A stretch of DNA of 64,000 nucleotides, from assembly GCA_934646815.1 (NCBI GenBank), contig CAKUEW010000002.1:296106-360105 (forward strand), in the 5' to 3' direction. A model generated the notes under the pieces. The model did not search any database, was not told where the DNA came from, and saw nothing but the letters and a program-made list of their open reading frames with translations. Positions 5,930 to 57,020 of this stretch are shown here, in pieces. Position 1 is the stretch's first letter; each line of letters opens with the position of its first letter. This DNA is from an uncultured Collinsella sp. (GTDB lineage: Bacteria > Actinomycetota > Coriobacteriia > Coriobacteriales > Coriobacteriaceae). A program made the translations under genes and the position numbers.

Positions 5930-6829
5930 CTAGTTGCAAACCCGATCGAGAGACTCGTCGGTATGAACTACGATCACATTCTGTTTGAGTATGAAGCGGA
6001 ATCCGTCATCCTCGTGTTGAGCAACACCTTCGGCATCGATGTTTTCATAAACATCGCCGCTGCTGAGTACGTCAGTCTCGGATTCAGACGCCTCGACGCC
6101 CTCGTCGAGCAGGCCGGTCTCCTGCTCGGAGTCCTCGTCGGCCTCGTCGAGCAGACCCGTCTCGCGCTCGGACTCCTCGTCCTCCTCCACGAGCAGACCC
6201 GTGGAGCGCTCGGACTCTTCGTCGTCCTCGACCAAGACACCCGTCGGACGCTCGGAATCCTCTTCGTCCTCGGTTAGCACGCCGGTCGGACGCTCGGAAT
6301 CCTCTTCGTCCTCAACCAGAACACCGGTGGGGCGCTCGGAATCTTCCTCGTCCTCCACGAGCACGCCGGTGGGTCGCTCGGTATCCAGATCATCCTCGGT
6401 CAGCACCTCGGTCGGGGTCTCGCTACCGGCAAAACCCTCGTCGTCGTTCTCGTCGCGAGCAGGCTTTTCAGCCTGCGCGGCGTGGGCGGCGCGGCGGGCC
6501 GAAGCGGGCTCGTCGCTGATGGGCGCGACCACCGTGGTCATGTTGTCGTCGCCCTCGGGACCCTCGTGCGCAATGTCGGTCACGCGGTCGTCGCCCTCGG
6601 GGCCACCCAGCACGGAGCGGGCGGGGTTGGACTTCTTAGCGCCGGCACCACGCGAGCCGCGCGTCGTACGGCGGCGCGCACCCTCACCAGAGGTGGGCAC
6701 GCGCTTGCCCTGGAGGAAGCGGATGGCATTGATGACATCCATCTTCACAAACACAACCACCGCGGCGACGGCGAGCACGGCCGCGAGAACAAACGCGGCG
6801 ATCGCTACGTAAAAGTAAACGTTTTCCAT
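5930..6829 (-). CDS. Membrane protein with an acidic T-x-V-L repeat array
   Basis: The 299-residue protein has an N-terminal transmembrane helix (about residues 5-28), then a basic Arg/Gly-rich segment and a long acidic C-terminal region. Between about residues 135 and 265 it carries a tandem repeat of roughly 14 residues with the core S-E-R-P-T-G-V-L followed by E/D residues. I count nine Thr-x-[Val/Leu]-Leu copies (TEVL, four TGVL, three TGLL, TDVL). Single threonines in an acidic context with hydrophobic residues at +2/+3 are typical of kinase substrates read by FHA domains. The gene is 12 bp downstream of the membrane kinase gene. The protein is probably a multivalent phosphorylation scaffold; this is inference. 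Confidence 0.8.
   Translation of the reverse strand: MENVYFYVAIAAFVLAAVLAVAAVVVFVKMDVINAIRFLQGKRVPTSGEGARRRTTRGSRGAGAKKSNPARSVLGGPEGDDRVTDIAHEGPEGDDNMTTVVAPISDEPASARRAAHAAQAEKPARDENDDEGFAGSETPTEVLTEDDLDTERPTGVLVEDEEDSERPTGVLVEDEEDSERPTGVLTEDEEDSERPTGVLVEDDEESERSTGLLVEEDEESERETGLLDEADEDSEQETGLLDEGVEASESETDVLSSGDVYENIDAEGVAQHEDDGFRFILKQNVIVVHTDESLDRVCN
6076..6415 (-). repeat. 42-bp coding tandem repeat (T-x-V-L array)
   Basis: Within the membrane-protein gene the DNA repeats at about 42 bp, each unit encoding one acidic 14-residue block around PTGVL. Units in the middle are nearly identical at the base level while the outer ones have diverged to TGLL or TDVL, which suggests recent expansion from the centre. 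Confidence 0.8.
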
Positions 6830-19003: not shown

Positions 19004-21103
19004 ATGGCAGATACCACCCCGCAGTCCGATTCGATGACAGTTCTCTTTCAGCTTGAATCGTTCGACACCGCCGCCCCCGTCAATCCCGCCGACGAGGAGC
19101 TCGCCAAGCGCCGCTTTATGACGCTCATCGTCACGGCCGATCGTTCGTCGCATGGCAACACGGGCCTTGTGCTGCCGGCGCATAACACCTCAAACGAGCG
19201 ATTCGCCGTCAAAGTGCTCGCGGACAACACGCTCGCGCGCGCGCTGAGCACCAACACGCCGTCGCGCACAGCGGACGAATCCGCTATGCACCTGGCAAAC
19301 ACCGCCGCGCTCTTTGAGGAATACCGAAACCTCTGCCGCGTGTCGCACTTGCGTGGGTTTCCCCGCGTCTATGGCTATGGCACGTGCCAGGGCGAACCGC
19401 TCATCCTTATGGAGTGGATCGAGGGCACGTCGCTCGACAAAGCAGTTAGTATGCTGCCACATGATGGCGAGGGCGTGACTTGTGCCGCCACTGCATCGGT
19501 AGGCTGCGCTGTGCTGGGTACGCTGTTGTCGACCCAAAACCTCGAGACGCCGCTTGTACACCGCGACCTGTCGCCCGCGAACATCATGTTCCGCACCAAC
19601 GAACTTGGCATCGACGAGCAAGTGCAGACGCTGGCGTTTAAGCCATGTCTGGTCGATATGGGCTCCTCGGTCCCGGCCCTGGGCGGCGACACGCTCACGC
19701 AGCGCGCCGACATTTGGCGCTATGCCACGCCGGCATACGCTGCGCCCGAAATGCTCACCCGCGATATTCCCAACATTGCCGAGCTGCGCCGCTCGTCCGC
19801 CGTCGACGTGTACGCCATCGCGAGCATCCTCTACGAGCTCTATAGTGGGCACACCCCCTTTAGGGCTGCCAGGCACCAAGCTCATGGGGTCTACTCATAC
19901 TACCTGCTCAAGACGCAAAACGAACCCGAGCCGCTCGTTGCCCACAAGGGTGACGACCAGGCTTTTGCCGACCTTATCATGTCGTGTCTCGCGACCGACC
20001 AGACATCGCGCCCCAGCGAGCGCGAGTTCTACGAGGGCTTGCTGGCATTCGCCCCCGACCTGGGCGAATCGGCCGTGAGCACGCCGGGGCTCTCCAACCA
20101 GCCCATCAACATCGACGCCGGTGCGCACCTTAAGGTCGATGTCGCTGGTGACCGTGCCCGGGCGCTTTTGGAGCAGGCCCGTCGCGATGCCATGACCCGT
20201 CGCCGGTTTATTATCGGCGGCATCGCTGCGGCCGGCGTGGCACTTGGCGTGGCAGGCGCGCTCACCCACGGCTTTGGCATCCCCGACCACCTCGACGGCA
20301 TCCGCGGGTCGCTTAACGACTACACCTGGGACCAGCTGCAGGAGATCTCACTTAAGATCAAGGCCGCGAATAACAAGGCCGCGGCGCGCGACATTGCCAA
20401 GCGGTATCACCTGCTCGACGACAACGGACATATCCCCTATCCGTGCACCAAGCGCGTGCAACTCACCAACGGACTCGAGGTTGGTGCCCAGCTTGTGGGC
20501 ATCCGTCACGACGAGCTTGTCGATGGAACGGGTTTTGCCGGCCTGTCGTTCATCTTCGACGCGGGCATTGCCGAGCGCGATGCCGCAGATGAGCCGCCCA
20601 GTGCCGGTTGGGCCGATTGCGAGCTGCGGGCATGGCTCTACACCGATGGCCTTAAGCTGCTACCCAACGATCTGCGCGCGATGATCAACTCCGTCAAGAA
20701 GACCTCGAACAACGTCGGCGCTGCCAGAAGCGCCTCGTGTCTGAGTGAGCTTCCCGCGACCCTCTGGCTGCCCGCCATGGTTGAGCTCTGCGGCGTGCAG
20801 CCGCCCGAGTCATTCTCCGAGGATTGCCATTATCTGGCCGACATCTACAACGGCGAAGGCAAGGAGTACCAGCTGTTCCGCGAGCTCAAGGTGAGTCCGT
20901 ACTCCACCAACTCGACCATGGTACGCCAGTGGAAGGGCAAGGACACCTGCTGGTGGGAGCGAACGGTGAGCCCCGATACGTCGGAAACCGAAGGCACGCT
21001 CTACATCAATCGCGTGGGCTACGACGGCGACGTCTTTATGTACGCCACGCCTGCAAGCAAGCCAAGCAAGCGGACCTGCGTGATCCCCGGGTTCTGTATT
21101 TAG
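19004..21103 (+). CDS. Transmembrane Ser/Thr kinase with C-terminal DUF6273-type domain
   Basis: The start MADTTPQSDS at 19004 has AAGGTAAGG ahead; the longer reading is not supported. The 699-residue protein is a close paralogue of the WG-repeat kinase in its N-terminal half: K70 (FAVKVL), HRDLSPAN (186-193), DMG (218-220) instead of DFG, and AYAAPEM (244-250). TRRRFIIGG (398-406) immediately precedes a hydrophobic helix, again a twin-arginine-like junction. The C-terminal 260 residues contain WADCELRAWLYTDGLKLLP and a Y-C-S/N-rich end typical of DUF6273 surface domains. The two paralogues thus share a kinase and differ in the outer domain. Confidence 0.9.
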   Translation: MADTTPQSDSMTVLFQLESFDTAAPVNPADEELAKRRFMTLIVTADRSSHGNTGLVLPAHNTSNERFAVKVLADNTLARALSTNTPSRTADESAMHLANTAALFEEYRNLCRVSHLRGFPRVYGYGTCQGEPLILMEWIEGTSLDKAVSMLPHDGEGVTCAATASVGCAVLGTLLSTQNLETPLVHRDLSPANIMFRTNELGIDEQVQTLAFKPCLVDMGSSVPALGGDTLTQRADIWRYATPAYAAPEMLTRDIPNIAELRRSSAVDVYAIASILYELYSGHTPFRAARHQAHGVYSYYLLKTQNEPEPLVAHKGDDQAFADLIMSCLATDQTSRPSEREFYEGLLAFAPDLGESAVSTPGLSNQPINIDAGAHLKVDVAGDRARALLEQARRDAMTRRRFIIGGIAAAGVALGVAGALTHGFGIPDHLDGIRGSLNDYTWDQLQEISLKIKAANNKAAARDIAKRYHLLDDNGHIPYPCTKRVQLTNGLEVGAQLVGIRHDELVDGTGFAGLSFIFDAGIAERDAADEPPSAGWADCELRAWLYTDGLKLLPNDLRAMINSVKKTSNNVGAARSASCLSELPATLWLPAMVELCGVQPPESFSEDCHYLADIYNGEGKEYQLFRELKVSPYSTNSTMVRQWKGKDTCWWERTVSPDTSETEGTLYINRVGYDGDVFMYATPASKPSKRTCVIPGFCI

Positions 21104-21150: not shown

Positions 21151-21530
21151 TGTCCTGATCTGTAACAAGTAGAGCTTATTTTCCCTGCTAGTTGTTACAG
21201 ATTGAGACGTTGAGGTTTCACCCGTTCGTTTGTCTCGATCTGTAACATCCAGAGTCCGAAAACAGGTCCAGATGTTACAGATCAGGACGTTTGAGCTGAC
21301 CCCGGATAGTTTGTCTCGATCTGTAACAAAAACTCGGCAAAACGGAACCTGGATGTTACAGATTGAGACGTTAAGTTGTGGCTCGACAGTTTGTCTCGAT
21401 CTGTAACATCTACTCGTCAAAACAGGGCCCAGTTGTTACAGATTGAGACATTGAGCTGCGGCTCGAAACGTTTGTCTTGATCTGTAACAACTAGGACCCG
21501 AAAACCCCGCTAGATGTTACAGATTGAGAT
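21151..21530. repeat. Palindrome array 1: five 58-bp units at 80-81 bp spacing
   Basis: This array fills most of the 580-bp gap between the kinase and copA. Units lie at 21151-21208, 21231-21288, 21312-21369, 21392-21449 and 21473-21530. Each has an 18-base left arm of the form TGTCTCGATCTGTAACA and a right arm of the form TGTTACAGATTGAGAC around a 24-25 base centre that often contains AAAAC. Gaps of 22-24 bases separate units. The rest of the gap holds the copA promoter. Confidence 0.95.
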
Positions 21531-21604
21531 GTTTGGCTGGGACGGTCCGCTGCCCCGGCAGCCGGCCCCTTCTGTAACGAAATGTCATACAATTCGATAC
21601 CCAC

Positions 21605-21682: not shown

Positions 21683-24025
21683 ATGGCTCAAGATAAGTTT
21701 GACGTGGGTGGCATGACGTGCGCCGCCTGCCAAGCACACGTTGACCGCGCCGTCAGCAAACTCGACGGCGTCCAAAGCGTCGCGGTCAACCTGCTCGCCG
21801 GCTCTATGCTGGTCGACTACGATCCCGCGCAGGTCACGCCCGACGACATCTGCACCGCCGTCGACCGCGCGGGTTACTCGGCATCGCCCGTCAGCGCGGG
21901 CACCGAAGCCGTCCCAGGCGGCAGCACGCAAGCCAGGTCCGGCGCCGCCCATATGGAGTCGCCCACCAAAAAGCTGGAGGTCGCTGCCTCCGCCATGCGC
22001 ACCCGCCTCATCATCTCAATCATCTTCCTCGTCCCGCTGTTCTACATAGGCATGGGGCACATGCTCGGCTGGCCGCTGCCCGGCATCTTCACCGACCACA
22101 CCCACAGCATGACGCTCGCGCTCACCGAGCTCGTCCTGCTCATCCCCATCGTCTACGTCAACGACGCATACTTTATCAATGGGTTTAAGTCGCTGGTCCA
22201 CGGCGCGCCCACCATGGACGCCCTCATCGCCGTCGGTGCCACGGCCTCCATCGCTTGGTCGCTCTACGCCATGTTTATCATGGCCGACCAGCTGGCCGCG
22301 GGACAGGTCCACGAGGCCATGATGACGAGTATGGACAACCTGTATTTTGAGAGCGCGGGCACCATTTTGGCGCTGGTCACCGTGGGCAAGTACCTCGAGA
22401 CGCGCAGCAAGTCTAAGACCGGCGGTGCGATCGAGGCGCTGATCGACCTGGCCCCCAAAACCGCGACCGTCGTGGCCGAGGACGGTACCGAGACCACCGT
22501 CGACGTCGATGCAATTGTCGCCGGGCAGACCGTGCGCGTGCGCCCCGGCGAGTCCATCCCCGTCGATGGCGTGGTGCTCGAGGGAAGCTCGGCTGTGGAT
22601 GAGAGCGCGCTGACCGGCGAGTCCATCCCCGTGGAAAAGGAGCCCGGCGCCACGGTGGGCGCGGGCACTATCAACCGCACCGGTTCGTTTACCTTCCGCG
22701 CCACGCGTGTGGGTACCGATACGTCGCTCGCCAAGATTATCCGGCTCGTCGAGGACGCCAACGCCACCAAGGCGCCCATCGCCCGCCTGGCCGACAAGGT
22801 CGCCGGCGTGTTTGTGCCCGTGGTGTTTGTGATCTCGGCCGTGACCTTTGCGGCGTGGATGGCGCTGACCGGAAGCGCGAGCGAGGCGCTCACCTCCGCC
22901 GTCGCCGTGCTGGTGATCAGCTGCCCGTGCGCGCTGGGGCTGGCCACGCCCGTCGCCATTATGGTGGGCACCGGCAAGGGCGCCGAGATGGGCATTCTGT
23001 TTAAGAGCGCCGAGGCGCTGGAGAACCTGCGCAGCGTGGGCACCGTGGTACTCGACAAGACGGGCACCGTCACCCGCGGCAAGCCGGCTGTGACCGATAT
23101 CGTGGTGGCGACGCGCGCCGACGGGACGCCCACCATGAGCGAGAAGGCGCTGCTCAAGCTTGCCGCCGCGCTGGAGCGCCAAAGTGAGCATCCGCTGGCC
23201 GAGGCGATTATGGACGAGTGCGAGACACGCGGAATCGTCGCGCGCATGGTCGAGGACTTTTCCGCCGTGCCCGGTCGCGGCGTTACGGCGCGCGAGGGGC
23301 AAAATGCCATCGCCGCCGGCAACGTGCGCCTGATGGACGAACTGGGGGTTACCGTACCTGCGGGCCTTGCCGAGCAATTTGCCGCCGAGGGCAAGACGCC
23401 GCTGTTCTTTGCCAAGAACGGCGAGCTTGCCGGCACCATCGCCGTGGCAGACGAGGTCAAGGAGACGAGTGCCGGAGCTATCGCCGCGCTGCGCTCGCTC
23501 GGCGTCGACGTGCGCATGCTCACCGGCGACAACCGCGTGACGGCCGAGGCCATCGCCCGCCGCGTGGGGCTGAGCCGCGAACAGGTTATCGCCGACGTTC
23601 TGCCCGCCGACAAAGAACGCCACGTGCGCGAGCTGCAGGAAGCGGGCAGCAAGGTCGCCATGGTGGGCGACGGCATCAACGACTCCCCCGCCCTGGCGCG
23701 CGCCGACGTGGGCCTTGCCATCGGCACCGGTGCCGATATCGCCAAGGAGGGTGCCGACGTGGTGCTCATGCGCAGCGACCTTATGGACGTCGCGCACGCC
23801 ATCGAGCTCTCGCGCGCCACGATCCGCAACATCAAGCAGGACCTGTTCTGGGCGCTGTTCTACAACGGCATCGGCATTCCGCTGGCAGCGGGCGTGTTCT
23901 TCCCCCTCACCGGGTGGCAGCTTTCGCCGATGTTCGGCGCCGCCGCCATGAGCCTGTCGAGCGTCTGCGTGGTGTCCAACGCCCTGCGCCTGCGCACCTT
24001 TAAGCCATCAGTTGCGGTGAAATAG
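21683..24025 (+). CDS. copA: Copper-exporting P1B-type ATPase
   Basis: The 780-residue protein exports Cu(I) across the membrane using ATP. It has one N-terminal HMA domain with MTCAAC (11-16), the membrane metal site CPC (414-416), the phosphorylated aspartate in DKTGT (458-462), TGDN, and the hinge GDGIND (about 662-667). Eight membrane helices are expected. AAAGGGGAAG precedes the ATG. The last codons and the stop lie inside a dispersed palindromic repeat (24010-24076), so the C-terminal SVAVK is repeat-derived. It is followed by copZ and csoR. The CPC motif and the neighbours favour Cu(I)/Ag(I) over Zn or Cd. Confidence 0.96.
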
Positions 24026-25469: not shown

Positions 25470-26840
25470 CTACGCCACGCCGTCGCGGGCAAGCTCCTCG
25501 GCAAGAGACTCAGCAGGCATGGCCATAATCGCGTCGAGCTCGGCATCCACCTCGGGAATATGCTTCACCTGCAGCTTGCGCACCAGGGCGCCACGGCACA
25601 TAACGTGGACGGGTTTGCGCAGTGCCGCCAAATCCTCTAGCGGATTCTCGCATGTCACCAAGATATCAGCAGCCTTGTCGCACGCAATCGTGCCGGTCTC
25701 GCCGCCCAGGCCCAGCAGCTCGGCGTTAACCTGCGTCGCCGTGTGCAGCGCAAAGGCATTGCTCACGCCCACGTACTTGGCAAAGTAGGCCACCTCGCGC
25801 CACATGTCATACTGCGTCACAAACGGGCAACTCGAATCCGTGCCCAAACCCACCTTAACACCCGCCTCCAGCGCGGCGCGGGCGCTCTCGATGATGCCCG
25901 AGCACACAATGTCGCCGTTCTTCTTTTGCGTATCGGTCGAATGGGTCTTCTGGGGATCGAGCAGCACAAACGGCAGCGCGGGGCTAATGGTGCAGGTCAC
26001 GCTGGGCGCGCGGCCCTCGAGCTGCGTACCGGCGGCACCACGGTACAGCTCCAGGATCTCGGGCGTTAACGGAGCGCCGTGCTCGATCGTGTCGACGCCG
26101 GCCTGGAGCGCGACTCTCACGCCCTCGGTGCTCTCGACGTGGGCCATAACCGGTAGCCCCACTTCGTGTGCCGCCCTGCATGCCGCCGCGGCAACCTCCA
26201 CCGGCATGCGCAGCACACCCGGCTCGCCCACCTCGGTCGCGTCGAACACGCCACCCGTCACGAACAACTTAATGACGTCGGCACCACGCGCATACAGGTC
26301 GCGCACCTGCTCGGCTGCCTCGGCGGGACTGTTGGCTACCTGCGCGAACAGGCCCGCGCCATGGCCGCCCGGCACCGTAACGCCCGTTCCCGGCGCCACC
26401 AGGCGCGGGCCCTGATACTTGCCGGCGTCGATGGCGTCGCGTACGGCAATGTCGGCAAACAGCGGGTCGCCCGCACCGCGCACCGTGGTCACGCCGCTTG
26501 CCAGCTGCTGCTGGGCGCTGCCCTTGAGGATATGACGGACGATGGCGCGGCCCACGGGGTTGTCGAGCTTCTTCATGAGCGCGCCCGCATCGCCCGCCGA
26601 GACCGGCTTGCCCGAACCGCACAGATGCACGTGCATGTTGATGAGGCCCGGCATGAGATACGCGCCTGCCAGGTCGATGACCTCGGCACCCGCCGGCGCC
26701 TGTGCCACGGCACTCGGGCCAATCCAGGTGATGACGCCGCGCTCAACAGCCACGGCCATATCGGGCTGCGGCTCCATATGCTCCGAACCATCCAGAACGG
26801 TCGCATTGATAAACAACGTGGAACGATCGGCAGACGCCAT
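25470..26840 (-). CDS. Metal-dependent amidohydrolase, imidazolonepropionase-like
   Basis: The start MASADRSTLF at 26840 has GGAGGAG nine bases ahead and is preferred to the upstream start at 26873. The 456-residue protein belongs to the amidohydrolase superfamily: metal-binding HVH in LINMHVHLCG, later histidines in VMAHVE and IEHGAPL, and the metal aspartate in GLGTDSSCPF. Such enzymes hydrolyse cyclic amides, often prolidase-like or imidazolonepropionase-like. No histidine-degradation genes are nearby, so the substrate is open. There is no signal peptide; it is cytoplasmic. Confidence 0.88.
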   Translation of the reverse strand: MASADRSTLFINATVLDGSEHMEPQPDMAVAVERGVITWIGPSAVAQAPAGAEVIDLAGAYLMPGLINMHVHLCGSGKPVSAGDAGALMKKLDNPVGRAIVRHILKGSAQQQLASGVTTVRGAGDPLFADIAVRDAIDAGKYQGPRLVAPGTGVTVPGGHGAGLFAQVANSPAEAAEQVRDLYARGADVIKLFVTGGVFDATEVGEPGVLRMPVEVAAAACRAAHEVGLPVMAHVESTEGVRVALQAGVDTIEHGAPLTPEILELYRGAAGTQLEGRAPSVTCTISPALPFVLLDPQKTHSTDTQKKNGDIVCSGIIESARAALEAGVKVGLGTDSSCPFVTQYDMWREVAYFAKYVGVSNAFALHTATQVNAELLGLGGETGTIACDKAADILVTCENPLEDLAALRKPVHVMCRGALVRKLQVKHIPEVDAELDAIMAMPAESLAEELARDGVA

Positions 26841-26988
26841 ATCGGGCTCCTCCCCCTCAAAAAACTTCAACATTTGTCCATTATCACCTAATGTAGCGAA
26901 CTAAAGTCGAACATATCGGTTAACGGAGGAAAGACGGGCGCGAACCAGGCAGAGCCGAGCAGTTTCAGCGGCCCATGCGCCAGGCAAA

Positions 26989-27367
26989 TGTCTCGTTCTG
27001 TAACAGGCAGACAGCTCAAAGGCCCCTAAACGTTACAGATTGAGATCTTTCGACAGCAGGCCCACCCTTTGTCTCAATCTGTAACAACTACAGGACAAAA
27101 CAGCCTCTGGATGTTACAGATCGAGACATTTCCCAGCCCCGTCGTCAAACATCTCAATCTGTAACATCTAGACCGATTTTCGACCGCTACCTGTTACAGA
27201 TTGAGATATTCCCCCGCTCCGCTGCCAAACATCTCAATCTGTAACAGATAGGAGGCAAAACAGCCGCTAAATGTTACAGATCGAGACAAAACCGTGGCAC
27301 ACTACCGTTCGTCTCAGTCTGTAACAGTTACGCAGGTTTATGACAGCCAGATGTTACAGATCGAGAT
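26989..27367. repeat. Palindrome array 2: five 58-bp units
   Basis: Units lie at 26989-27046, 27070-27127, 27150-27207, 27230-27287 and 27310-27367, a period of 80-81 bp. Arms are TCTCAATCTGTAACA and its inverse. Centres alternate between AAAAC and TTTTC forms. The array fills the 570-bp gap between the amidohydrolase and the DUF559-like gene. Confidence 0.95.
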
Positions 27368-27410
27368 AAACCGTCGGCCGCAGCAATCACACCTATTTCA
27401 GCTGCACCCC

Positions 27411-28448
27411 TCAGCGTCCGCACCACTGACGCCTCCACTCCTCAGCCAATTCAGGCTGTTGAGGAATGCCCGCCAGCCTCATTTTCTTGACTAGCTTCCC
27501 GGGGTTCTTGAGTTCATCAAACGTAAACCGAAGCACCTTGTGGCCGAGCATCGTCAGATGCGATTCCCGCTGACGCTCCGCCACGAACGGGTCGACTGAC
27601 TCCCGACCTTCACCGTTCTGCAAGGTATACTTCCCCTTTCCGTCCAGCTCACCGATCACGCACGTCCCGTCCTCGAGCCGCCAAAAATAGTCGACCCGAA
27701 ACACCTGAGCCGGATCGAGCGGATCGCGAAACTCCACCTGCAGCTCCGGCACCGAAAACCCGTACGCAATAAAGAACGCCCGAAAGCGCGACTCACCGCC
27801 GTTCTCGGACAGTCCGTCCGCACGCGACGCAATCACCTGCGCCCTACGATACCCGCGCCTGCCCTCGCAATCGACACGAAGCCGCTCACACAGGTCCTCG
27901 CGCGGCGTGCCCTTCGCCCGCAGCGCCGAGTCCGCAATCGCCAGCCCATACGAAAAAGGCGCACGCAACAGACAATCTTCCACCGTCTGCCAAAACGATG
28001 TCACCCGCACACCGTCGACATTCTCAAGCGCACCCGCCGCCTGCGGGCGCAACAACCTACACCCACCGTTCAGCGCCACCGAGCAACTCGTTTTGACCAG
28101 GCAACGCGGCCCGATCAAATCATTCGGCACTTCCAAGCCCCATAGCAGCGCAGCGTCATAACCCCAAAACGCCCAATCGGGATGAAATTCGGCAAGCCCC
28201 TTAATGGTCCGCACCGCGCGCTCCGGCGGCGTCAGCGAATCCCAATCATGCTGAAAACAGAACAGGTGCGGCTCGGGTTCCGCAATATCGTCGGCACCCA
28301 CATGTCGTCGCAGCCACATGAGCTCGGCATTGTCGTGCGTTGCAAGCAGCGCTCCGCAATCTGCCGCATCCTTCAACCGAGCGAGCATCCTATTCCGCGC
28401 CAAGGTATTGCATGCGGAGTGCTTATGCTTGAAAACAGTATTGGACAT
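27411..28448 (-). CDS. AbiEi-like/DUF559-type protein with a Vsr-like nuclease fold
   Basis: The 345-residue protein has an N-terminal part that resembles the AbiEi-type antitoxin domains of actinobacteria (PPERAVRTIKGLAEFHPDWA, then FWGYDAALLWGLEVP). The C-terminal part looks like a DUF559/Vsr-type fold, with FRVDYFWRLED, VIGELDGKGKY and ERQRESHLTMLGHKVLRFT. The Asp, E-x-D and downstream Gln/Arg-Glu positions fit a PD-(D/E)xK-like site. No cognate toxin gene is adjacent. It is bracketed on both sides by palindrome arrays 2 and 3, and a hexanucleotide run lies upstream of its start. Function is uncertain: a solitary defence or DNA-transaction protein is possible. Confidence 0.75.
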   Translation of the reverse strand: MSNTVFKHKHSACNTLARNRMLARLKDAADCGALLATHDNAELMWLRRHVGADDIAEPEPHLFCFQHDWDSLTPPERAVRTIKGLAEFHPDWAFWGYDAALLWGLEVPNDLIGPRCLVKTSCSVALNGGCRLLRPQAAGALENVDGVRVTSFWQTVEDCLLRAPFSYGLAIADSALRAKGTPREDLCERLRVDCEGRRGYRRAQVIASRADGLSENGGESRFRAFFIAYGFSVPELQVEFRDPLDPAQVFRVDYFWRLEDGTCVIGELDGKGKYTLQNGEGRESVDPFVAERQRESHLTMLGHKVLRFTFDELKNPGKLVKKMRLAGIPQQPELAEEWRRQWCGR

Positions 28449-28535: not shown

Positions 28536-28835
28536 TATCTTGATCTGTAACAGGTAGACAGCTCGTAGGCCCCTAAACGTTACAGATCGAGATCTTTCGA
28601 CAGCAGGCCAGCTCTTTGTCTCAATCTGTAACAGGTAGACCGGTTTTTGACCGCTAGATGTTACAGATCGAGACATTCCCCAACCCCGTCGTCAAACATC
28701 TCAATCTGTAACAGCTACGGGACAAAACAGCCGTTAGATGTTACAGATCGAGATAAACCCGCGGCACACCTTCCGTTCGTCTCAATCTGTAACAGCCAGG
28801 GGCTCAAACGACCGCCAAACGTTACAGATCGAGAT
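28536..28835. repeat. Palindrome array 3: four 58-bp units
   Basis: Units lie at 28536-28593, 28617-28674, 28697-28754 and 28778-28835. Centres and gaps share long stretches with array 2 (for example GATCTTTCGACAGCAGGCC after the first unit of each), so the two arrays flanking the DUF559-like gene are related by duplication. The array fills the 427-bp gap together with the microsatellite. Confidence 0.95.
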
Positions 28836-28875
28836 AAAAGGCGGCACAGCGGCACCGCAACGGGCCAACTGCCCC

Positions 28876-29583
28876 CTACTTCCACTCCTGCTCGTAGATG
28901 TTAAGAGACTTCACGTAGCGTCCCTGGGCACCCATGGTGTCGCGGACCAGCCGCAAATAAAAGCTGAGCTGTCCAGTATCGAACCCATCATCCAGGTCCT
29001 CGGGATGCACGGAGCCCGGCCCGTCGACCGCCGTGTCGCACAGGCGCGCGATGTCGTACATATAGAGCTGTCCCACCGTCAGCCATACATCGTCCACGCA
29101 CGCGACGCGCACCGCGATGGCACCGTCGTTCCAATGATCTTTTTGCACGATATGCGGGTCGAAGAGGTCAAGCCGCCGATCGGTTCGCGTGTCGCGCAGC
29201 GCAACCATGCCGGTCGCGGGGTCTTTATCCAAAATGCCAAATCGCGAGAAGTAATGGGTGTCGCGCACCTGCTCGAGTCGTCCGAGCGATGCGGGCGAAA
29301 GCGAAGCCGGCGGTTCGTCGACGAACAGTTCCAGCAGCGTATGGCCACGGTAGTGGGGGCGCTCGAACAGCAGCCAGTCGGTAAACGCCATGTTGTAAGC
29401 CATGATTTCGTTTTGCGAGGGTTCTTCGCAATAGCTGAGCCACGGGTCGACGACAAGCTCAAACTGCTCGCGCGCCAACTCCAAAAATTGAAACTTCCGC
29501 AGCATCCAAAAGTGGGCCATGTCGGCAACATCCTTGCCGACGGCCTCGACCAGCCGTGCTCGGTCCAAAACGTGGTCAGTCAT
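28876..29583 (-). CDS. Protein of unknown function
   Basis: The 235-residue protein starts MTDHVLDRARLVEAVGKDVA with GAGGAGGAC before the ATG. It is soluble, acidic and rich in aromatic residues (FQFLELAREQFELVVDPW, WLLFERPHYRGHTLLELFV). I recognise no motif. It ends 40 bp from array 3 and no other gene is within 360 bp upstream, so it looks like a single-gene unit. Confidence 0.7.
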   Translation of the reverse strand: MTDHVLDRARLVEAVGKDVADMAHFWMLRKFQFLELAREQFELVVDPWLSYCEEPSQNEIMAYNMAFTDWLLFERPHYRGHTLLELFVDEPPASLSPASLGRLEQVRDTHYFSRFGILDKDPATGMVALRDTRTDRRLDLFDPHIVQKDHWNDGAIAVRVACVDDVWLTVGQLYMYDIARLCDTAVDGPGSVHPEDLDDGFDTGQLSFYLRLVRDTMGAQGRYVKSLNIYEQEWK

Positions 29584-36136: not shown

Positions 36137-36319
36137 CGCGATCCTCCCCTAGATATTAGACAGTCAGTTGAATAGGCATACTAGGAGCATCGCCGGCCCG
36201 TTGTGTTTCCCACCCGTTTCGAAACAATCGCGTAACGCACGTAACAAATGATCCGTTATCCGGCACTTGGGGACGTTCCTTTCCTGCCGGCAGTTTGGGA
36301 CACTCCTTTCACCAATCTG

Positions 36320-36384
36320 AAACGTGTACGTCAGCCTCCAAACATGTCGAAATTTGACATCTTTGGAGGCTGATGTACACGTTT
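36320..36384. repeat. 65-bp hairpin, GTGTACGTCAGCC family, copy 1
   Basis: AAACGTGTACGTCAGCCTCC and a near-perfect inverse surround ACATGTCGAAATTTGACAT. It lies in the 394-bp gap between divergent gltB and the arylsulfotransferase gene; the rest of that gap holds a CCGGCA/TGCCGG hairpin near 36257 and presumably both promoters, which I could not place. Confidence 0.88.
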
Positions 36385-36530
36385 TAGCGCGGGAACGGTC
36401 AGCGCGCATGTTCTGGCCCCAAGGGATCATTCTGAAAAAGCGATACCCGGGTAGCTCAATTCCATATATTCATACGCGTTTAGTAGGTTGTAGACTATCC
36501 AGAACCGAATCCTACAGACAGGAGTCACTC

Positions 36531-38048
36531 ATGGGCTATCCGAGCATTCATCCCACCGGCACCCTCATCTACGACAAAGAGCGTGCCTACAACGGCTACA
36601 CCATCTTCCCCACCCCGGGCGGCGCGCTGCTCATCGACATGAACGGCCGCGAAGTCAACCGCTGGGCGGGCCTGGGCGGCTTTCCCAACAAGCTGCTGCC
36701 GGGCGGCCAGGTCTTTGGCACCTCGGGCGCACGCGGCGGCGCGGCGGCCTACCAGGACCAGCTCGACCTGCTGCAGGTCGACTGGGACGGCAACATCGTC
36801 TGGAAGTGGGACCATACCGAGCTCGTCGCCGACGAGGGCAGGGACCCCGCCTGGCAGGCACGCCAGCACCACGACTACCAGCGCGAAGGCTCGCCCGTGG
36901 GCTACTACGCGCCTGGTCTGGAGCCACGCGCGGACGGCGGCAACACCATCATCCTCACGCACGAGAACAGCTATCACCCCCAGATCAGCGACAAGCTCCT
37001 GATCGACGATAAGGTCATCGAGGTCACCTGGGACGGCCAGATCGTCTGGGAGTGGCGCGCTGCCGATCATTTTGAGGAGTTCGGCTTTAACGAGGTGGCT
37101 AAAAAGTCGCTCTACAACAATCCCTCCATGCGCGGCGAGGCTGGCGGCGACTGGCTGCACATCAACTGCGTCTCGGAGCTCGGCCCCAACAAGTGGTACG
37201 ACCGCGGTGACGAGCGCTTTGCCCCCGAGAACCTCATCTTCGACTGCCGCAATGCCAATATTCTGGCCATCATCTCCAAAAAGACCGGCAAGATCGTCTG
37301 GAAGCTCGGCCCGCGCTTCGATGGCAGCGATGCCGAGAAAAAGATCGGCTGGATTATCGGCCAGCATCACTTCCATATGATTCCCAAGGGGCTGCCCGGC
37401 GAGGGCGACCTGCTCGTCTTCGATAACGGCGGCGCCGCGGGCTATGACGCCCCCAACGCCATCGCGCCCGACGGCACCAACGCCGTTCACCGCGACTACT
37501 CGCGCATTCTGCAGTTCAACCCCATCACGCTCGAGATCACGTGGCAGTACACTCCGCTCGAGGCCGGCTGGCTCCCCTTTGCCGACGGTAGCCGCTTCTA
37601 CTCGCCGTTCATTAGCTCGGCCCAGCGCCTGCCCAACGGCAACACGCTCATTACCGAGGGCTCCGACGGCCACCTGATCGAGGTCACGCCCGACCACGAA
37701 ATCGTTTGGGAGTACCTGAGCCCCTACTTTAAGGCGCCGGCCCCCGGCTTTAGCTCCAACATGGTCTACCGCGCCTACCGCGCGCCCTACGAGTGGGTGC
37801 CGCAGGTGGACCACGCGCCCGAGGTGTCGATCGAGCCCATCGACAACGCCACCTTCCGCGTGCCGGGTGCCTCGAGCGAAAAGCTCAACGTGACCGTGGT
37901 CGACGGCATCGACCCCTACCAGACCGCTCTGACCGGTATGAATGCCGAGGACGAGGAATCCGACGAGGGCCACGCAGACTTTTGCATGATGCGTCTGGAC
38001 ACCGCCGAGCTCAAGGGCGACACCAAGGCCCCCAAGTTCGGCCTGTAA
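36531..38048 (+). CDS. Arylsulfotransferase (ASST)-family protein
   Basis: The start MGYPSIHPTGTLIYD has ACAGGAG seven bases ahead. The 505-residue protein resembles the arylsulfotransferase superfamily of six-bladed propellers: repeated D-x-x-G-x-I-V-W-x-W/K blades (GNIVWKWDH, GQIVWEWRA, GKIVWKLG, HEIVWEY) and candidate catalytic histidines in RQHHDYQ and GQHHFHMIPKG. Family members move sulfate between phenolic compounds without PAPS. Bacterial AssT is usually exported, but no signal peptide is seen here, so this one may be cytoplasmic. A dispersed hairpin follows the stop. Confidence 0.82.
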   Translation: MGYPSIHPTGTLIYDKERAYNGYTIFPTPGGALLIDMNGREVNRWAGLGGFPNKLLPGGQVFGTSGARGGAAAYQDQLDLLQVDWDGNIVWKWDHTELVADEGRDPAWQARQHHDYQREGSPVGYYAPGLEPRADGGNTIILTHENSYHPQISDKLLIDDKVIEVTWDGQIVWEWRAADHFEEFGFNEVAKKSLYNNPSMRGEAGGDWLHINCVSELGPNKWYDRGDERFAPENLIFDCRNANILAIISKKTGKIVWKLGPRFDGSDAEKKIGWIIGQHHFHMIPKGLPGEGDLLVFDNGGAAGYDAPNAIAPDGTNAVHRDYSRILQFNPITLEITWQYTPLEAGWLPFADGSRFYSPFISSAQRLPNGNTLITEGSDGHLIEVTPDHEIVWEYLSPYFKAPAPGFSSNMVYRAYRAPYEWVPQVDHAPEVSIEPIDNATFRVPGASSEKLNVTVVDGIDPYQTALTGMNAEDEESDEGHADFCMMRLDTAELKGDTKAPKFGL

Positions 38049-38055
38049 TCCCGAT

Positions 38056-38088
38056 TGGTGCAAAGGTGTCAGGTTTCTTTGCACCAAC
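38056..38088. repeat. 33-bp hairpin after the arylsulfotransferase gene
   Basis: TTGGTGCAAA and TTTGCACCAA are inverted around GGTGTCAGGTTTC. It may help end transcription and resembles the TGGTGCA hairpin family. Confidence 0.65.
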
Positions 38089-38091
38089 TCA

Positions 38092-38156
38092 AAGGTGTAC
38101 GTCAGCCAGCAAACATGTCGTTTTTTGACATCTTTGGAGGCTGACGTACACCTTTT
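38092..38156. repeat. 65-bp hairpin, GTGTACGTCAGCC family, copy 2
   Basis: AAAGGTGTACGTCAGCC and its inverse enclose ACATGTCGTTTTTTGACAT. It has the same length and core as the copy at 36320, and the two copies lie on opposite sides of the arylsulfotransferase gene. Confidence 0.9.
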
Positions 38157-38174
38157 GGTGCAATGGGGACAGGT

Positions 38175-38509
38175 TCATACGCGCCAAATTGATCCCTTGG
38201 CGACGGCGTAGTGTATGGTCGCCGCCTCAAAAGAACCTAGGAACAGGTAGTACCAAAAGCCCTCGATCTGCATGTTCTCGTGGCACAAAAAGCCCAGGTA
38301 GACAAGCATATACGTGCCGATGGAAAACTGGACCGCATGGCGAGCGCCGTGCCAATGTAGGAAAAATTGCCCAGATAGAATATGTTGCCCGTGGTGCGCC
38401 ACAGCACGACGGCGACCACCTCAAAGACAATCCACAACAGCGCGGGAACCTTGTATTTTGCCAAGCCGTCCATCCGAGGGCCCTTCCACGTGTCAACCTT
38501 TGCTGCCAT
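38175..38509 (-). pseudogene. Frameshifted remnant of a membrane protein
   Basis: One frame reads MAAKVDTWKGPRMDGLAKYK and on through KVPALLWIVFEVVAVVLWRT and GNIFYLGNFSYIGTALA. Near 38341 the sensible reading jumps frame to VQFSIGTYMLVYLGFL, CHENMQIEGFWYYLFLGSF and EAATIHYAVAK. Together they make a continuous three-helix membrane protein, but the join requires a frameshift and the end is abrupt. The full-length relatives I have in mind continue into a 4Fe-4S-binding region that is missing here. No good ribosome binding site is seen. Confidence 0.65.
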
Positions 38510-38613
38510 TATGCGCGTACGCGGGCGCCACACGAAACCTGAGCCGGGCAATTCGGCATGTAAGGGTTTTGCAGACAGGGCGAACGCTCCGCCGGCGAGT
38601 CGTCCCAATCAAA

Positions 38614-38832
38614 AGTCTCAATCTGTAACAGATAGACCCGTTTTCGACGTCCAGATGTTACAGATCGAGATTATTTCGAGGGACTGCTCCGTTTGTCTCA
38701 ATCTGTAACATCTAGACCCGTTTTGAGCCGCTAGATGTTACAGATCGAGACATAACTGCAGGCCCGGTTCGGTTTGTCTCGATCTGTAACAGGTAGACTC
38801 AAATTCAGCCCCCAGTTGTTACAGATTGAGAG
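38614..38832. repeat. Palindrome array 4: three 58-bp units
   Basis: Units lie at 38614-38671, 38694-38751 and 38775-38832. Centres of the first two contain CCGTTTT, the third is degenerate. The second unit has a stem extended to TCTGTAACATCTAG. The array occupies the gap between the pseudogene and gpmA; a TGGTGCA hairpin and the gpmA promoter fill the rest. Confidence 0.94.
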
Positions 38833-38834
38833 AT

Positions 38835-39789: not shown

Positions 39790-39864
39790 CCCCAACCAAA
39801 ACCAAGCGCACGGCGCCGTGCAACCCAAGTGCGGCGCCGCGCCACCCGTATGCAGGACCCCACC

Positions 39865-41133
39865 ATGCTCAACCCCATGCTCAACCATCTCAAACAACGC
39901 TTTGGCTCCCCGCGTACCGGCGGTCACGGCGGACTCGACATCGCGCGGCACATCGGCCCCGGCTTGCTCGTGACCGTCGGCTTTATCGACCCGGGCAACT
40001 GGGCCTCCAACATGGCCGCCGGCTCGCAGTTTGGCTACACGCTGCTGTGGATCGTCACGCTGTCCACCATCATGCTCATCGTGCTGCAGCATAACGCAGC
40101 GCATCTGGGCATCGCCACGGGCACGTGTCTTGCCGAGGCCACGACGCGCTACCTCCCCCGCATCGTGGGGCGCGCAGTGCTCGGCAGCGCCTATCTCGCC
40201 ACGATCGCCACCGCCATGGCCGAGGTCCTGGGCGGCGCAATTGCGCTTCAGATGCTCTTTGGGCTGCCCGTGCGCGCAGGCTGCATCATCGTGGCTGCCG
40301 TATCGATGGCCATGCTCATGACAAGCTCTTACAAGCGCGCCGAGCGCTGGATCATCGCCTTCGTGGGCGTGGTAGGGCTCTCGTTTTTGGCCGAGCTTGC
40401 ACTGGTCAAGGTCGACTGGCCGCAAGCCGCCACCAGTTGGGTCACGCCCAGCATGCCCACCGGCTCGGCGGCGATTATCGTGAGCGTCCTGGGCGCGGTC
40501 GTCATGCCGCACAACCTCTTCCTGCACTCCGAGGTCATCCAGTCCATGCACTTCGAAGGCCAAGGCGAGCAGGTTATCGAGGAGCGTTTGCGTTACGAAC
40601 TTTTCGACACGCTCTTTTCGATGGGCGTTGGTTGGGCGATCAACTCGGCCATGGTCATTCTTGCCGCAACGACCTTCTTTTCGCACGGCATCGTCGTAGA
40701 CGACCTCGCCGTCGCGGCGGCCACGCTCTCCCCCATCCTGGGCCCGGCAAGCTCGATCATCTTTGCGGTGGCGCTGCTGTTCGCAGGTCTATCGAGCAGC
40801 GTGACGGCAGGCATGGCGGCCGGCACCATCACCGCCGGCATGTTCGACGAGGAATACGACATCCATGACCGGCACTCCTCGATCGGCGTGGCGCTCTGCT
40901 TTGTCAGCGCGGTGGTGGCCTGTCTGGTCGTGCCGAATCCTTTTGAGGGTCTGATCTGGAGCCAGACGCTGCTGTCACTTCAGTTGCCGATTACGGTCTT
41001 TGTGCTCATCCGACTCACCAGCTCGCGCCGCGTCATGGGCAAATACGCCAACTCACGCGCGCTCACCGCGCTACTCGTCGCGATCGGCGTCATCGTGACG
41101 GCCCTCGACGTCGTCCTATTGACGGGAATGTAA
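39865..41133 (+). CDS. mntH: NRAMP-family Mn(II)/Fe(II) transporter
   Basis: From the ATG at 39865, which has CAGGA seven bases ahead, the protein has 422 residues; ATG 39850 is an alternative. It is a divalent metal/proton symporter with the helix-1 motif DPGNWASNMAAGSQFGY and the helix-6 motif MPHNLFLHSEV. Ten or eleven membrane helices are visible. It probably imports manganese or iron. It follows gpmA closely, which may reflect the manganese needs of metabolism, but that is speculation. Confidence 0.93.
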   Translation: MLNPMLNHLKQRFGSPRTGGHGGLDIARHIGPGLLVTVGFIDPGNWASNMAAGSQFGYTLLWIVTLSTIMLIVLQHNAAHLGIATGTCLAEATTRYLPRIVGRAVLGSAYLATIATAMAEVLGGAIALQMLFGLPVRAGCIIVAAVSMAMLMTSSYKRAERWIIAFVGVVGLSFLAELALVKVDWPQAATSWVTPSMPTGSAAIIVSVLGAVVMPHNLFLHSEVIQSMHFEGQGEQVIEERLRYELFDTLFSMGVGWAINSAMVILAATTFFSHGIVVDDLAVAAATLSPILGPASSIIFAVALLFAGLSSSVTAGMAAGTITAGMFDEEYDIHDRHSSIGVALCFVSAVVACLVVPNPFEGLIWSQTLLSLQLPITVFVLIRLTSSRRVMGKYANSRALTALLVAIGVIVTALDVVLLTGM

Positions 41134-41159: not shown

Positions 41160-41538
41160 CATCTCAATCTGTAACATCTAGGCCCGTTTTTGATTGATAG
41201 TTGTTACAGATCAAGAGATTGCCGCGGGTCCAACTCCGTTTGTCTCAATCTGTAACAGGAAGACCCGTTTTTGACAGCTAATTGTTACAGATCAAGACAA
41301 TCGAAATTCTTCAGTTGATTCATCTCGTTCTGTAACATCTAGGCCCTGTTTTAGCCGCTGGATATTACAGATCGAGATTATTCCGAAAAACAATTTCGAA
41401 CGTCTCAATCTGTAACAGATGGACCTGTTTTCGACGTCCAACTGTTACAGATCGAGATTTTCCGGCAGACGGTTTAGGTTTGTCTCGTTCTGTAACATCT
41501 AGACCCATTTTTGACGTCCAGATGTTACAGATTGAGAC
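41160..41538. repeat. Palindrome array 5: five 58-bp units
   Basis: Units lie at 41160-41217, 41241-41298, 41321-41378, 41401-41458 and 41481-41538, an 80-81 bp period. All five centres carry the TTTT-type core (CCGTTTTTGA and variants). The array fills the 436-bp gap between the convergent mntH and ABC-transporter genes and could separate the two transcription units. Confidence 0.95.
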
Positions 41539-41569
41539 ATCTCGCAGGTTGAGCCCACGACAAGAACGG

Positions 41570-42436
41570 TTAGCAGTAGCTGTACACAACCTCACCGTTG
41601 AGTTCCATCCGGGCAATCGACACGTCGAAGACTTGTTCGAGCACGCCTTGGTCGAGAATCTCAGCAGGCGTGCCCACGGCAACGATTCGCCCGCCGTCCA
41701 TGACGGCAAGTCGGTCGCAGAAGCGCAGGGCAAGCGGCAGGTCGTGGATAACCACGGCACCGGTCATCCCCTGCCCATGGACCAACCCGCGCGCCAGGCG
41801 CATCACGTCGAGCGCCGCGCGGGGATCCAAATAGGTCGTCGGCTCGTCGAGCAGCACCGTCCGCGCACGCTGGGCAAGCACCATCGCGATAAACGCCCGC
41901 TGCCGCTCGCCGCCCGAAAGCGCGCGGGCAGCCTTGTGTGCCAAATGCTCAACGCCGGCAACGCGCATAGACTCGGCAACGATCACCTGGTCCCGCTCAG
42001 ACAGTCCGCCAAACAACCCCATATGGGCATAACGCCCGCACGACACGAGCGCCTCCACCGTCATGGACGGCGTGCGATGAATCTGGGGCAGCAGCGCGAT
42101 GCGCTCAGCGCGTTCACGGGCAGACAGACTGCCGAGAGTATCGCCCTCAACGAGCACCTCGCCTGCCGCCGCCTCCAGCACGCCATCGACCACACGCAGC
42201 AGAGTCGACTTACCGCAGCCGTTGGGACCGACGATACCCGTCAGGCAACCCGTGGGCAGTGCGAGCGACAAGCTGTCCAGCACCGTATGCTCACCATAGG
42301 CAAAGCGAACACCGCGCAGCTCAACGGCAGCACCCACCGAGTCCGACACCAAGCCCACTGGAGAACCCGCGACGGCCACGCCTTCGGCAACCCCAACGGC
42401 ACCGGCACCCGCGCCCCGCACCTCGCGCTCATTCAT
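41570..42436 (-). CDS. ABC transporter ATPase, iron-siderophore/tetrapyrrole type
   Basis: The 288-residue protein has Walker A GPNGCGKSTLL, the signature LSGGERQRAF and Walker B VLLDEPTTYLD, the hallmark of the FecE/BtuD family. The start overlaps the permease stop by 8 bp. With the permease and lipoprotein upstream it forms a metal-chelate importer. It is the last gene of the long sulfur-assimilation unit. Confidence 0.92.
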   Translation of the reverse strand: MNEREVRGAGAGAVGVAEGVAVAGSPVGLVSDSVGAAVELRGVRFAYGEHTVLDSLSLALPTGCLTGIVGPNGCGKSTLLRVVDGVLEAAAGEVLVEGDTLGSLSARERAERIALLPQIHRTPSMTVEALVSCGRYAHMGLFGGLSERDQVIVAESMRVAGVEHLAHKAARALSGGERQRAFIAMVLAQRARTVLLDEPTTYLDPRAALDVMRLARGLVHGQGMTGAVVIHDLPLALRFCDRLAVMDGGRIVAVGTPAEILDQGVLEQVFDVSIARMELNGEVVYSYC

Positions 42437-43478
42437 CGCGAAACCCCTTTCGCGCCATAATCAGGTAGATAAAGAACGGCCCGCCCGCCAGCGACAGCAA
42501 AATGCCCACGGGCAGCTCGTAGGGCGCAAAGGCAGCGCGCGCCACGGTGTCGCACAGCACGGTAAACGCCGCGCCGCACACCGCACACAGGGGAATCACC
42601 AGCCGATTGTCATGGCCCGCGAGCCGGCGCACCGCATGGGGCACCATCAGGCCCACAAAGCCGATCAGGCCGCCAAAGCTCACCGCGCAGCCCGCCAGCA
42701 GCGCGGCAACGGCAAGCGCCGCCACGCGCACTGTCACCGTGCGCATCCCTAAGCCATGGGCCGCCTCGCGCCCCAGCGACAGCACGTTCAAATGGCTCGC
42801 CAGGCAGCACGCCGCCGCCAAACCGCACGTCACCAGCAGAGCCGGCAGCAGCAGGTTGCGCATCAGCACGCCCGAAAAGCCGCCGACCAAATACGCCGAC
42901 GACCCCACGTACACATTGGGCGTCACCAATAGCACGGTATTCATACCAGCGCCGGCCACGGCGTTGATTGCCACGCCCGAAAGCACCACCGTCAAACGTG
43001 ACACGCCCGCGCGCGCCGAAATGCCAAACACCAGCCCCGCCGCGACAAGCGCGCCCGTAAAGGCAACCAACGGCAGCAACTCGCGTGGCGGATTGTTGTA
43101 GAACAGCGGACAGGCCGAGACGGCAAGCACCGCCAGGCCCGCGCCCGAGTTGATGCCGATCACGCTGGGACTCGCCAGCGGATTATCGAGCACCGCCTGA
43201 ATCAGCGCGCCCGAAACAGAAAGCGCCGCGCCGGCGACCAGGCCGGCAACGACGCGAGGCATGCGGATATTCACGATTATGTTGGCGACAGTCGCGTCAA
43301 CGGGCGCACCGCTCAAATAGCGAACAATATCGCCCAGCGTGACAGAGCTCGCGCCCGTGCAAAACGAAACAACGACGGCAATAACCAGCACTGCGACAGA
43401 GCCTGCGATGAGGCGGGAGGGGCGTCGGCGCATCCGCGGCAGAGCGCCCCCCGCCCCGTTCGAACCCGTCTTACGCAT
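42429..43478 (-). CDS. ABC transporter permease, FecCD family
   Basis: The 349-residue protein has about nine membrane helices and the FecCD family features: LSGAPVDATVANIIVNIRMPR near the N-terminus, GAALSVSGALIQAVLDNPLA, and the coupling segment GLIGFVGLMVPHAVRRLAGH. It imports iron-siderophore, cobalamin or heme-like substrates with its partners. It begins 9 bp after the binding-protein stop. Confidence 0.93.
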   Translation of the reverse strand: MRKTGSNGAGGALPRMRRRPSRLIAGSVAVLVIAVVVSFCTGASSVTLGDIVRYLSGAPVDATVANIIVNIRMPRVVAGLVAGAALSVSGALIQAVLDNPLASPSVIGINSGAGLAVLAVSACPLFYNNPPRELLPLVAFTGALVAAGLVFGISARAGVSRLTVVLSGVAINAVAGAGMNTVLLVTPNVYVGSSAYLVGGFSGVLMRNLLLPALLVTCGLAAACCLASHLNVLSLGREAAHGLGMRTVTVRVAALAVAALLAGCAVSFGGLIGFVGLMVPHAVRRLAGHDNRLVIPLCAVCGAAFTVLCDTVARAAFAPYELPVGILLSLAGGPFFIYLIMARKGFRDE

Positions 43479-43487
43479 GCAAACCCC

Positions 43488-44570: not shown

Positions 44571-44598
44571 CGTTGTTCTTTCTGTTCTATCTTCTCTT

Positions 44599-45444: not shown

Positions 45445-45446
45445 GC

Positions 45447-45893: not shown

Positions 45894-45895
45894 CG

Positions 45896-46732: not shown

Positions 46733-46773
46733 GCGATAGCTCCCTTAACGCTGATAGAGAAACGGGGACCGGC

Positions 46774-47135: not shown

Positions 47136-47200
47136 GATTGGCATCCTTCCTACCAAGTAAATTCGTATCCGAGCCCCTGCGGGCCCATCCAAACAAGCAC

Positions 47201-56644: not shown

Positions 56645-57020
56645 GGAAAGCGCGTCCTAGAATTTGCGTCCAAACTGGGACACAGTTTCCCGCAGAGCCT
56701 CAACCGGAAAGCGCATCCCAGAATTCAAGCTCGTAACGGGACACAGTTTCCCCTAGAAGCGCTTTGGGAAAACGCATCCCACTCTGGACGCTCATTCCGG
56801 GACGCAGTTTCCGCCAGACGCTCATCCGGAAAGTCCATCCCAGTTTGAGGGCTCATTCCGGGATGCGTTTTCCCGTTGGGCTTCAAACGGAAAATGCATC
56901 CCAGTTTTAGGCCAGATAATGGGATACGTTTTCCCTTTGGGACCATTTGGGAAAATGCATCCCATTCCTCGGCTTGAAAATGGGATGCAGTTTCCCGTTG
57001 AGGGCCGGTTGGGAAAACTT
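56645..57020. repeat. Palindrome array 6: six 47-48 bp units at 60-61 bp spacing
   Basis: Units lie at 56645-56691, 56706-56752, 56766-56812, 56828-56874, 56889-56935 and 56949-56996, then a half unit at 57011. Arms are GGGAAAATGCATCCCA and TGGGATGCAGTTTCCC with variants; gaps are 12-15 bases. The array fills the 440-bp gap between the orphan domain and the VanZ-like gene. Arms differ entirely from arrays 1-5. Confidence 0.93.

Follow-up and report, generated by a model that had tools for sequence, protein, structure and literature searches.

Organization of the dyad arrays

Several intergenic regions of this Collinsella DNA carry short palindromes in tandem at a near-constant spacing, which raises the question of what such arrays are and what keeps them. 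In the window, which here means the whole stretch of 64,000 nucleotides analyzed, an arm-pattern scan located 5 arrays with 22 units and 44 arms, confirming the five units of the first array and the four further arrays reported in the initial annotation. When as many as 3 mismatches were allowed, the arm pattern matched the window 45 times, including a stray arm at 3281, against 1.06 matches expected and a maximum of 4 in 100 shuffles. A unit is 58 to 59 bp long and consists of an arm with the consensus TGTCTCRATCTGTAACA, a 25-bp center, and the reverse complement of the arm; the gap between successive units is 21 to 22 bp. At the dyad, AAA and TTT are interchangeable. When oriented by this tract, the center reads roughly NNTAGACCCGTTTTTGNCNNCTANN and may lie in either orientation relative to the arms, the two orientations of this polar core being near equal in number. 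The arrays are as follows.

Array 1, 21151..21531, no strand: five 59-bp dyad units starting at 21151, 21231, 21312, 21392, and 21473, between the protein-kinase/DUF6273 gene 19004-21103 (+) and gene 21683-24025 (+)
Array 2, 26989..27368, no strand: five units, with the amidohydrolase gene 25470-26873 (-) and ORF 27411-28448 (-) on either side
Array 3, 28536..28836, no strand: four units, on the far side of ORF 27411-28448 from array 2
Array 4, 38614..38833, no strand: three units, lying upstream of sequence that is homologous to the region ahead of Nramp in the complete chromosome G008
Array 5, 41160..41539, no strand: five units, directly downstream of the Nramp gene 39850-41133 (+)

Gene 21683-24025 has the start GGMTCAAC and may encode a heavy-metal ATPase, which this start resembles. 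By synteny and protein identity, the window was placed in the group of G008, whose chromosome (2,306,349 bp) holds 18 arrays with 44 units (88 arms) and a few solitary arms; those of the solitary arms that match perfectly belong to broken units next to array loci. The G008 ortholog of array 1 has 3 units (1078005-1078224), the place orthologous to array 2 has one unit, and the counterpart of array 3 has four units (1084838-1085137). Array 4 is the positional ortholog of G008 1092619-1092837 (3 units), and by eye the arms are kept between the two and the centers are scarcely similar. Elsewhere in the window, 42/84/126-bp tandem repeats occupy 6087-6415 within the predicted gene 5930-6829 (-).

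The spacing of the arms is rigid. All 22 window units have an arm offset of exactly 40 bp and lie 80 or 81 bp from the next unit, in agreement with the fixed period and the alternation of arms about every 40 bp that had been described for them. In the first-fetched loci, with overlapping loci retained, the arm offset is 40 bp in 438 of 442 units, and the unit period is 80 bp in 156 and 81 bp in 113 of 279 cases. These units were first called within narrow offset limits (36 to 44 or 38 to 42 bp), and the spacing was therefore recounted on distinct sequences with limits of 10 to 75 bp and at most 2 mismatches per arm. The distance between facing arms across the center was then 40 bp in 452 of 457 cases (39 bp once and 41 bp four times), and that between neighboring arms across the gap was 40 or 41 bp in 288 of 297 (40 bp in 182 and 41 bp in 106). 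The persistence of the 40-bp peak led us to reject an ascertainment artifact of the narrow limits. The same scan counted six same-orientation neighbors 32 bp apart, and a 235-bp gap in one locus (L010) is an assembly gap of N.

Conservation and turnover between species

Copies are conserved between species, mostly at the same loci, as the initial annotation had anticipated for a functional element. The 192 arrays with flanks (overlapping loci included) fell by single linkage into 21 syntenic groups, three of which are singletons. Mismatch was compared in orthologous pairs pooled over 12 loci, and the rates are descriptive, as the pairs are not independent. Arm positions 0 to 2 and 5 to 14 differ in 0 to 4% of comparisons and positions 3 and 4 in 16 to 19%; outside the arms, mismatch is 20% in centers and 21% in gaps, rates that include unit replacement, and 10% in flanks, taken as 350 bp of coding and noncoding sequence on each side. 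Because positions 3 and 4 vary freely inside an otherwise frozen arm, the arm appears to be kept by selection rather than by copying. Whole-arm mismatch is lower than that of the flanks in 9 and lower than that of the centers in 11 of the 12 loci; center mismatch exceeds flank mismatch in 8, and the pattern is thus not uniform across loci. The contrast between conserved arms and variable centers and gaps, first noted in the window, is borne out by this comparison.

Length is also constrained. Between orthologous arrays, indels number 0.12 per kb in arms, 0.29 in centers, 4.97 in gaps, and 5.02 in flanks, and gap indels are only 1 to 2 bp long; a center indel longer than 2 bp would remove a unit from its class in this count, and such units are uncommon in the wide spacing count. 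Of the indels that span several classes, 219 of 236 measure 79 to 81, 159 to 161, or 241 bp, so that arrays grow or shrink by entire units, in 80-bp steps that keep the register. Downstream of Nramp, 21 loci of array-bearing genomes (L251 to L271) comprise 13 with complete units, 7 with a single left arm, and 1 with nothing. A single arm is accordingly retained in 7 of the 8 array-free places there, and no clean empty site was found. The fetched Nramp locus of two array-free relatives (L272 and L273) contains no arm.

Distribution among genomes

An exact search of the genome collection returned at least 120 stretches, and among the 80 listed, 78 are from Collinsella and 2 are single matches elsewhere. 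Counted as exact matches with an arm-to-arm spacer of 20 to 30 bp, a procedure that misses diverged copies, 22 of 43 genomes of the genus have 17 to 44 units, one (G037) has one unit, and 20 have none. Among 296 genomes drawn from the class, 21 match, every one of them already in the genus list, and no exact unit occurs in the 259 genomes of other genera of the class that were searched. Within the C. aerofaciens group, the element is widespread. The one unit of G037 (C21:34745-34799; L288) is perfect and lies close to a contig end, next to a tRNA-like stretch; G029, which is otherwise without exact units, carries a degraded arm set with a 35-bp offset (C24:8114-8204; L287). Judging by these sequences, horizontal transfer of the stray units is possible. 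Three contigs of the viral collection have a match, and 601 bases of the first include two units that closely resemble those of the L047/L112 locus. No description of this repeat was found among the best-ranked matches of a literature search.

Genomic context and candidate partner genes

The arrays avoid genes. With a simple codon-usage gene model made for this analysis, the five window arrays are intergenic, as the initial annotation had stated, and so are all 18 arrays of G008; of 148 non-redundant arrays in the Collinsella loci analyzed, none shares more than 30 bp with a predicted gene. In G008, 7 of 18 arrays lie between convergent genes, compared with 12% of 548 intergenic regions of at least 200 bp (P = 0.004). 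When arrays are grouped by orthology, 8 groups are co-directional, 7 are convergent, and 6 are divergent, and the convergent preference is therefore moderate. About 1.4 kb of DNA whose inverted ends are GGCTTATAGGACA interrupts one G008 unit at 1828657-1830072, apparently with an 8-bp target duplication, GCAGCTAG; from its sequence, it looks like an insertion sequence inside the unit.

A clustering of arrays near the origin is striking by eye in G007 and G008 and was not upheld for the 80- to 81-bp family against the 548 G008 intergenic regions (P = 0.16); for this family merged with the second array family described below, the value in G008 is P = 0.045 (KS, 0.11). Near the GC-skew minimum of G008, an intergenic 131-bp tandem repeat (1728134-1728454) has 2.5 copies with a 98% match.

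Control of a regulon was rejected, the flanking genes appearing functionally mixed both in the window and in G008, where they were judged from protein starts. No binder of the arrays was found, and the two array-adjacent ORFs considered do not co-distribute with them. ORF 27411-28448 (-) encodes 345 amino acids, has arrays on either side, and shows a weak C-terminal resemblance to DUF559 (E = 0.036, below the cutoff). Its close ortholog is absent from 3 of the 22 array-bearing genomes (G001, G007, and G010) and broken in G025, and it was discarded as a partner on account of the three genomes that keep arrays without it and of distant homologs in array-free genomes. ORF 28876-29583 was likewise discarded, its homologs being present in 41 of 43 genomes, array-free genomes included.

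Competing explanations for the arrays

One role put forward at the outset was a multi-hairpin RNA, taken here as stacked stem-loops acting as a 3' untranslated stabilizer, an attenuator, or a terminator. It draws on the predicted RNA fold of array 1, which is strong relative to shuffles (z = -12.3), and on the short distance from the upstream stop codon to co-directional arrays (median, 51 bp in ++ and 55 bp in -- contexts). An inverted repeat would be expected to fold in this way, and the energy by itself therefore does not indicate a function. Across 164 non-redundant units, drawn from 438, the variable symmetric arm pairs have no excess pairing (pair 4/50, z = 0.25; the highest, 5/49, z = 1.7), and symmetric center positions are depleted of it (26/28, z = -8.4; 22/32, z = -5.6; 24/30, z = -4.7), which makes the center anti-complementary; the strongest dependencies are between neighboring positions, such as AAA/TTT at the dyad. 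In a separate count of the 22 window units, pairing was no better than shuffled. Compensatory arm changes, which the initial annotation had named as a sign of function, were thus absent from both sets, the invariant arm columns being uninformative on covariation and still able to pair. The combinations at pair 4/50 are, with one exception, purine-pyrimidine and could form a pair (as G-U) on one or the other strand, and in arrays 2 to 5 most mismatches read as A-C on the + strand and as G-U on the opposite strand. An RNA reading by this G-U polarity was rejected, the wobble strand being independent of gene direction over 148 non-redundant arrays (in ++ contexts, 9 arrays fit, 7 do not, and 7 are ties; in -- contexts, 5 fit, 12 do not, and 3 are ties). 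Rfam at the gathering score matched two tRNAs in the whole window and nothing in the arrays. A terminator-like hairpin precedes the array in 12 of 20 testable G008 genes reading into arrays, with 1.4 expected from base shuffles and 248 of 850 (29%) in control genes at array-free intergenic regions longer than 110 nt. The corresponding figure in the window is 0 of 5 testable genes, and some arrays may be transcribed. Inspection found no intrinsic terminator (a GC-rich stem and then a T run) in the units or the consensus, and the alternating arms and consensus-keeping center do not form a CRISPR layout; both explanations had also been dismissed initially. A hairpin would also have no need of the 80-bp register. 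A selected hairpin is therefore poorly supported, phased double-stranded DNA under selection would fit the sequence data, and a multi-hairpin RNA seems very improbable.

The arrays do recombine, and a site array for a recombinase had also been suggested. At sites of a dedicated recombinase, the 25-bp polar core between inverted arms could be inverted or exchanged, which would give variable array content or cassette exchange. Among 474 orthologous unit pairs with both neighbors matching, 423 have the same center, 41 another center, and 10 an inverted one, and an exact 25/25 center inversion with unchanged neighbors separates L266 (genome G015) from L103 and L268. In G001, G007, and G010, a single short array (2, 1, and 1 units) occupies the place of the array-ORF 27411-28448-array arrangement, and in G007 and G010 its left border is that of array 2 in G008 and its right border that of array 3 in G008. 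Between the window and G008, 3 of 4 length differences of at least 400 bp overlap an array or have an end no more than 5 bp from it, a second-family array being involved in one of the three, compared with 6 array-holding intergenic regions among 28 in the compared stretch (hypergeometric P of about 0.02, calculated by hand). Site-specific inversion sites, such as those of DNA invertases and tyrosine recombinases, have symmetric arms and an asymmetric core. The arrays share this design and show near-equal core orientations and one exact core inversion; they differ in their fixed period and in the restriction of inversion to one lineage, to which all 10 flipped pairs (6 distinct center pairs printed) trace. 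Template switching is a proposed route by which short inverted repeats flip their spacer, which counts against a dedicated enzyme, and swaps and deletions can arise from ordinary recombination between units. Nor does recombination at such sites require an 80- to 81-bp register between units. The comparisons show centers swapped or flipped, units lost or gained, and, between the window and G008, large gene-content differences that touch arrays; as a by-product of a platform role, the inverted arms appear to act as recombination substrates. Ordinary recombination or template switching would suffice. The inversion and the center replacements are evidence of recombination at the arms, a dedicated recombinase is not required for them, and we consider one improbable. 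Two window blocks, 41191-53203 (12.0 kb) and 36242-38608 (2.4 kb), correspond to 17 and 72 bp in G008, and each terminates within or next to an array.

REPIN clusters and BIMEs are the closest known elements. On their pattern, the arrays would be non-autonomous mobile repeats, with arms as transposase recognition ends and arrays as amplified copies that are now largely immobile. According to the cited sections, REPINs have two invariant inverted ends of about 16 bp and a spacer that is less conserved and constrained in length, are extragenic, and include some tandem clusters of few units (PMC3116915), and BIMEs are extragenic, regularly spaced inverted elements in alternating orientation (PMC2817692, PMC3733652); the arrays have all of these traits. 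Y1 transposases (PF01797) occur in 22 of 22 array-bearing genomes versus 14 of 20 array-free genomes (Fisher P = 0.007), a value that ignores common descent, which could produce such a difference; the difference may yet be meaningful. Some exchange is suggested by centers that are similar at different loci (a similarity of 19/25 links 139 of 181 arrays into one chain), by arrays 2 and 3, whose units and gaps are alike by eye, and by the single unit and degraded arms of the otherwise array-free G037 and G029. Against present dispersal within genomes speak the common syntenic loci across species. G008 has 44 units, below the more than 100 copies per genome usual for REP/BIME elements, its two Y1 genes have no arm (at most 3 mismatches) within the surrounding 6-kb stretches, one of the two is bordered by a different repeat, and no autonomous element ending in an arm was seen there. 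RAYT as a driver was rejected for this lack of linkage in G008, although Y1 transposases are commoner in array-bearing genomes. In the cited sections, compensatory changes are called common in REPINs, whose clusters adjoin RAYT genes and, where ordered, are called nearly identical repeats (PMC3116915); compensatory changes are also suggested for Stenotrophomonas REPs, whose inter-REP segments vary substantially in length (PMC2817692), and a REP is itself a palindrome of 20 to 40 bp (PMC3733652). Unlike these, as described there, the arrays lack compensation in 164 and 22 units and have an anti-complementary center, units that differ within one array, a 1-bp register running from unit to unit, inter-arm segments fixed within about 1 bp, and a single arm that on inspection is no clear palindrome. 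Binding of gyrase, IHF, and DNA polymerase I to BIMEs and REPs is reported in the same sources (PMC2817692, PMC3733652). A match to a known REP, IS, or terminator family, named in the initial annotation as a refuting result, was not found by sequence, although the layout resembles that of REPIN clusters and BIMEs. We do not file the arrays as REP/REPIN elements, with which they may share an origin, and a REPIN- or BIME-like mobile repeat appears unlikely. At G008 759496-760862, a Y1 transposase gene with its own GGGGACAGACT-type inverted repeats forms a REP/RAYT-like pair unrelated to the arrays.

A second array family with a different motif

A second family has a motif unrelated to TGTCTCRATCTGTAACA, a similar alternating-arm design, and a period of 61 to 62 bp. 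One of its arrays lies in the window, eight in 2.24 Mb of G008, and two in other loci.

Window, 56645..56995, no strand: 12 alternating arms GGGAYRCRNTTTCC, offsets 32 and 29 bp, period 61 bp
G008: 144456, 1162052, 1163696, 1224021, 1650097, 1947972, 2101086, and 2224073
Other loci: L069 at 6799 and L103 at 3668

In its 11 clusters, one arm offset is 32 bp in 32 of 32 neighboring pairs, and the other is 29 or 30 bp in 23 of 24. The combination of one exact offset and one loose by 1 base in an unrelated motif suggests a common kind of constraint.

A putative double-stranded-DNA platform

On balance, the sequence comparisons suggest that the arrays are probably double-stranded-DNA docking platforms for a putative clade-specific protein. 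Of the roles proposed initially, a tandem protein-binding platform has the best, though indirect, support in DNA features (arm conservation, rigid spacing, and the lack of covariation), and no binder was found among the genes considered. The putative protein would bind the two arms of a unit across the fixed 25-bp center and would stack from unit to unit along the array. Such a binder, presumably a dimer, may be cooperative, because the spacings within and between units are both held and because 40 and about 80.4 bp are near 4 and 8 helical turns (about 10.05 bp per turn), a phase argument that is arithmetic only. It may also wrap the array DNA. As the flanking genes appear functionally mixed and convergent intergenic regions are overrepresented, an architectural or insulating role at gene ends seems more plausible than control of a regulon. 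Plasmid centromeres and Tn7/Mu-type transposon ends contain phased repeats of asymmetric half-sites of roughly 20 bp. The arrays resemble them in these phased half-sites and differ from them in occupying about 18 chromosomal loci per genome, in their strictly alternating orientation, and in having no partner gene that we could find.

A broader proposal, which we offer tentatively and with more doubt than confidence, is that the two families belong to a new class of element, phased dyad arrays, which would be centromere- or insulator-like gene-boundary platforms for a protein that polymerizes with whole-turn phasing. Such arrays would have arisen at least twice with different motifs (80- to 81- and 61- to 62-bp periods), and their arms would be hot spots of gene gain and loss.

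A short palindrome between genes is generally classed as a REP-type repeat that forms a hairpin and is maintained by a transposase. The array data separate two ideas within this view, as inverted symmetry is conserved here without a sign of selected pairing. The distances are kept more strictly than the sequence that separates the arms, which points to a predicted dedicated DNA-binding protein that would have many chromosomal platforms in a group of bacteria common in the human gut. The array loci form a natural set for the study of tandem dyads and their influence on bacterial chromosomes and on gene turnover.
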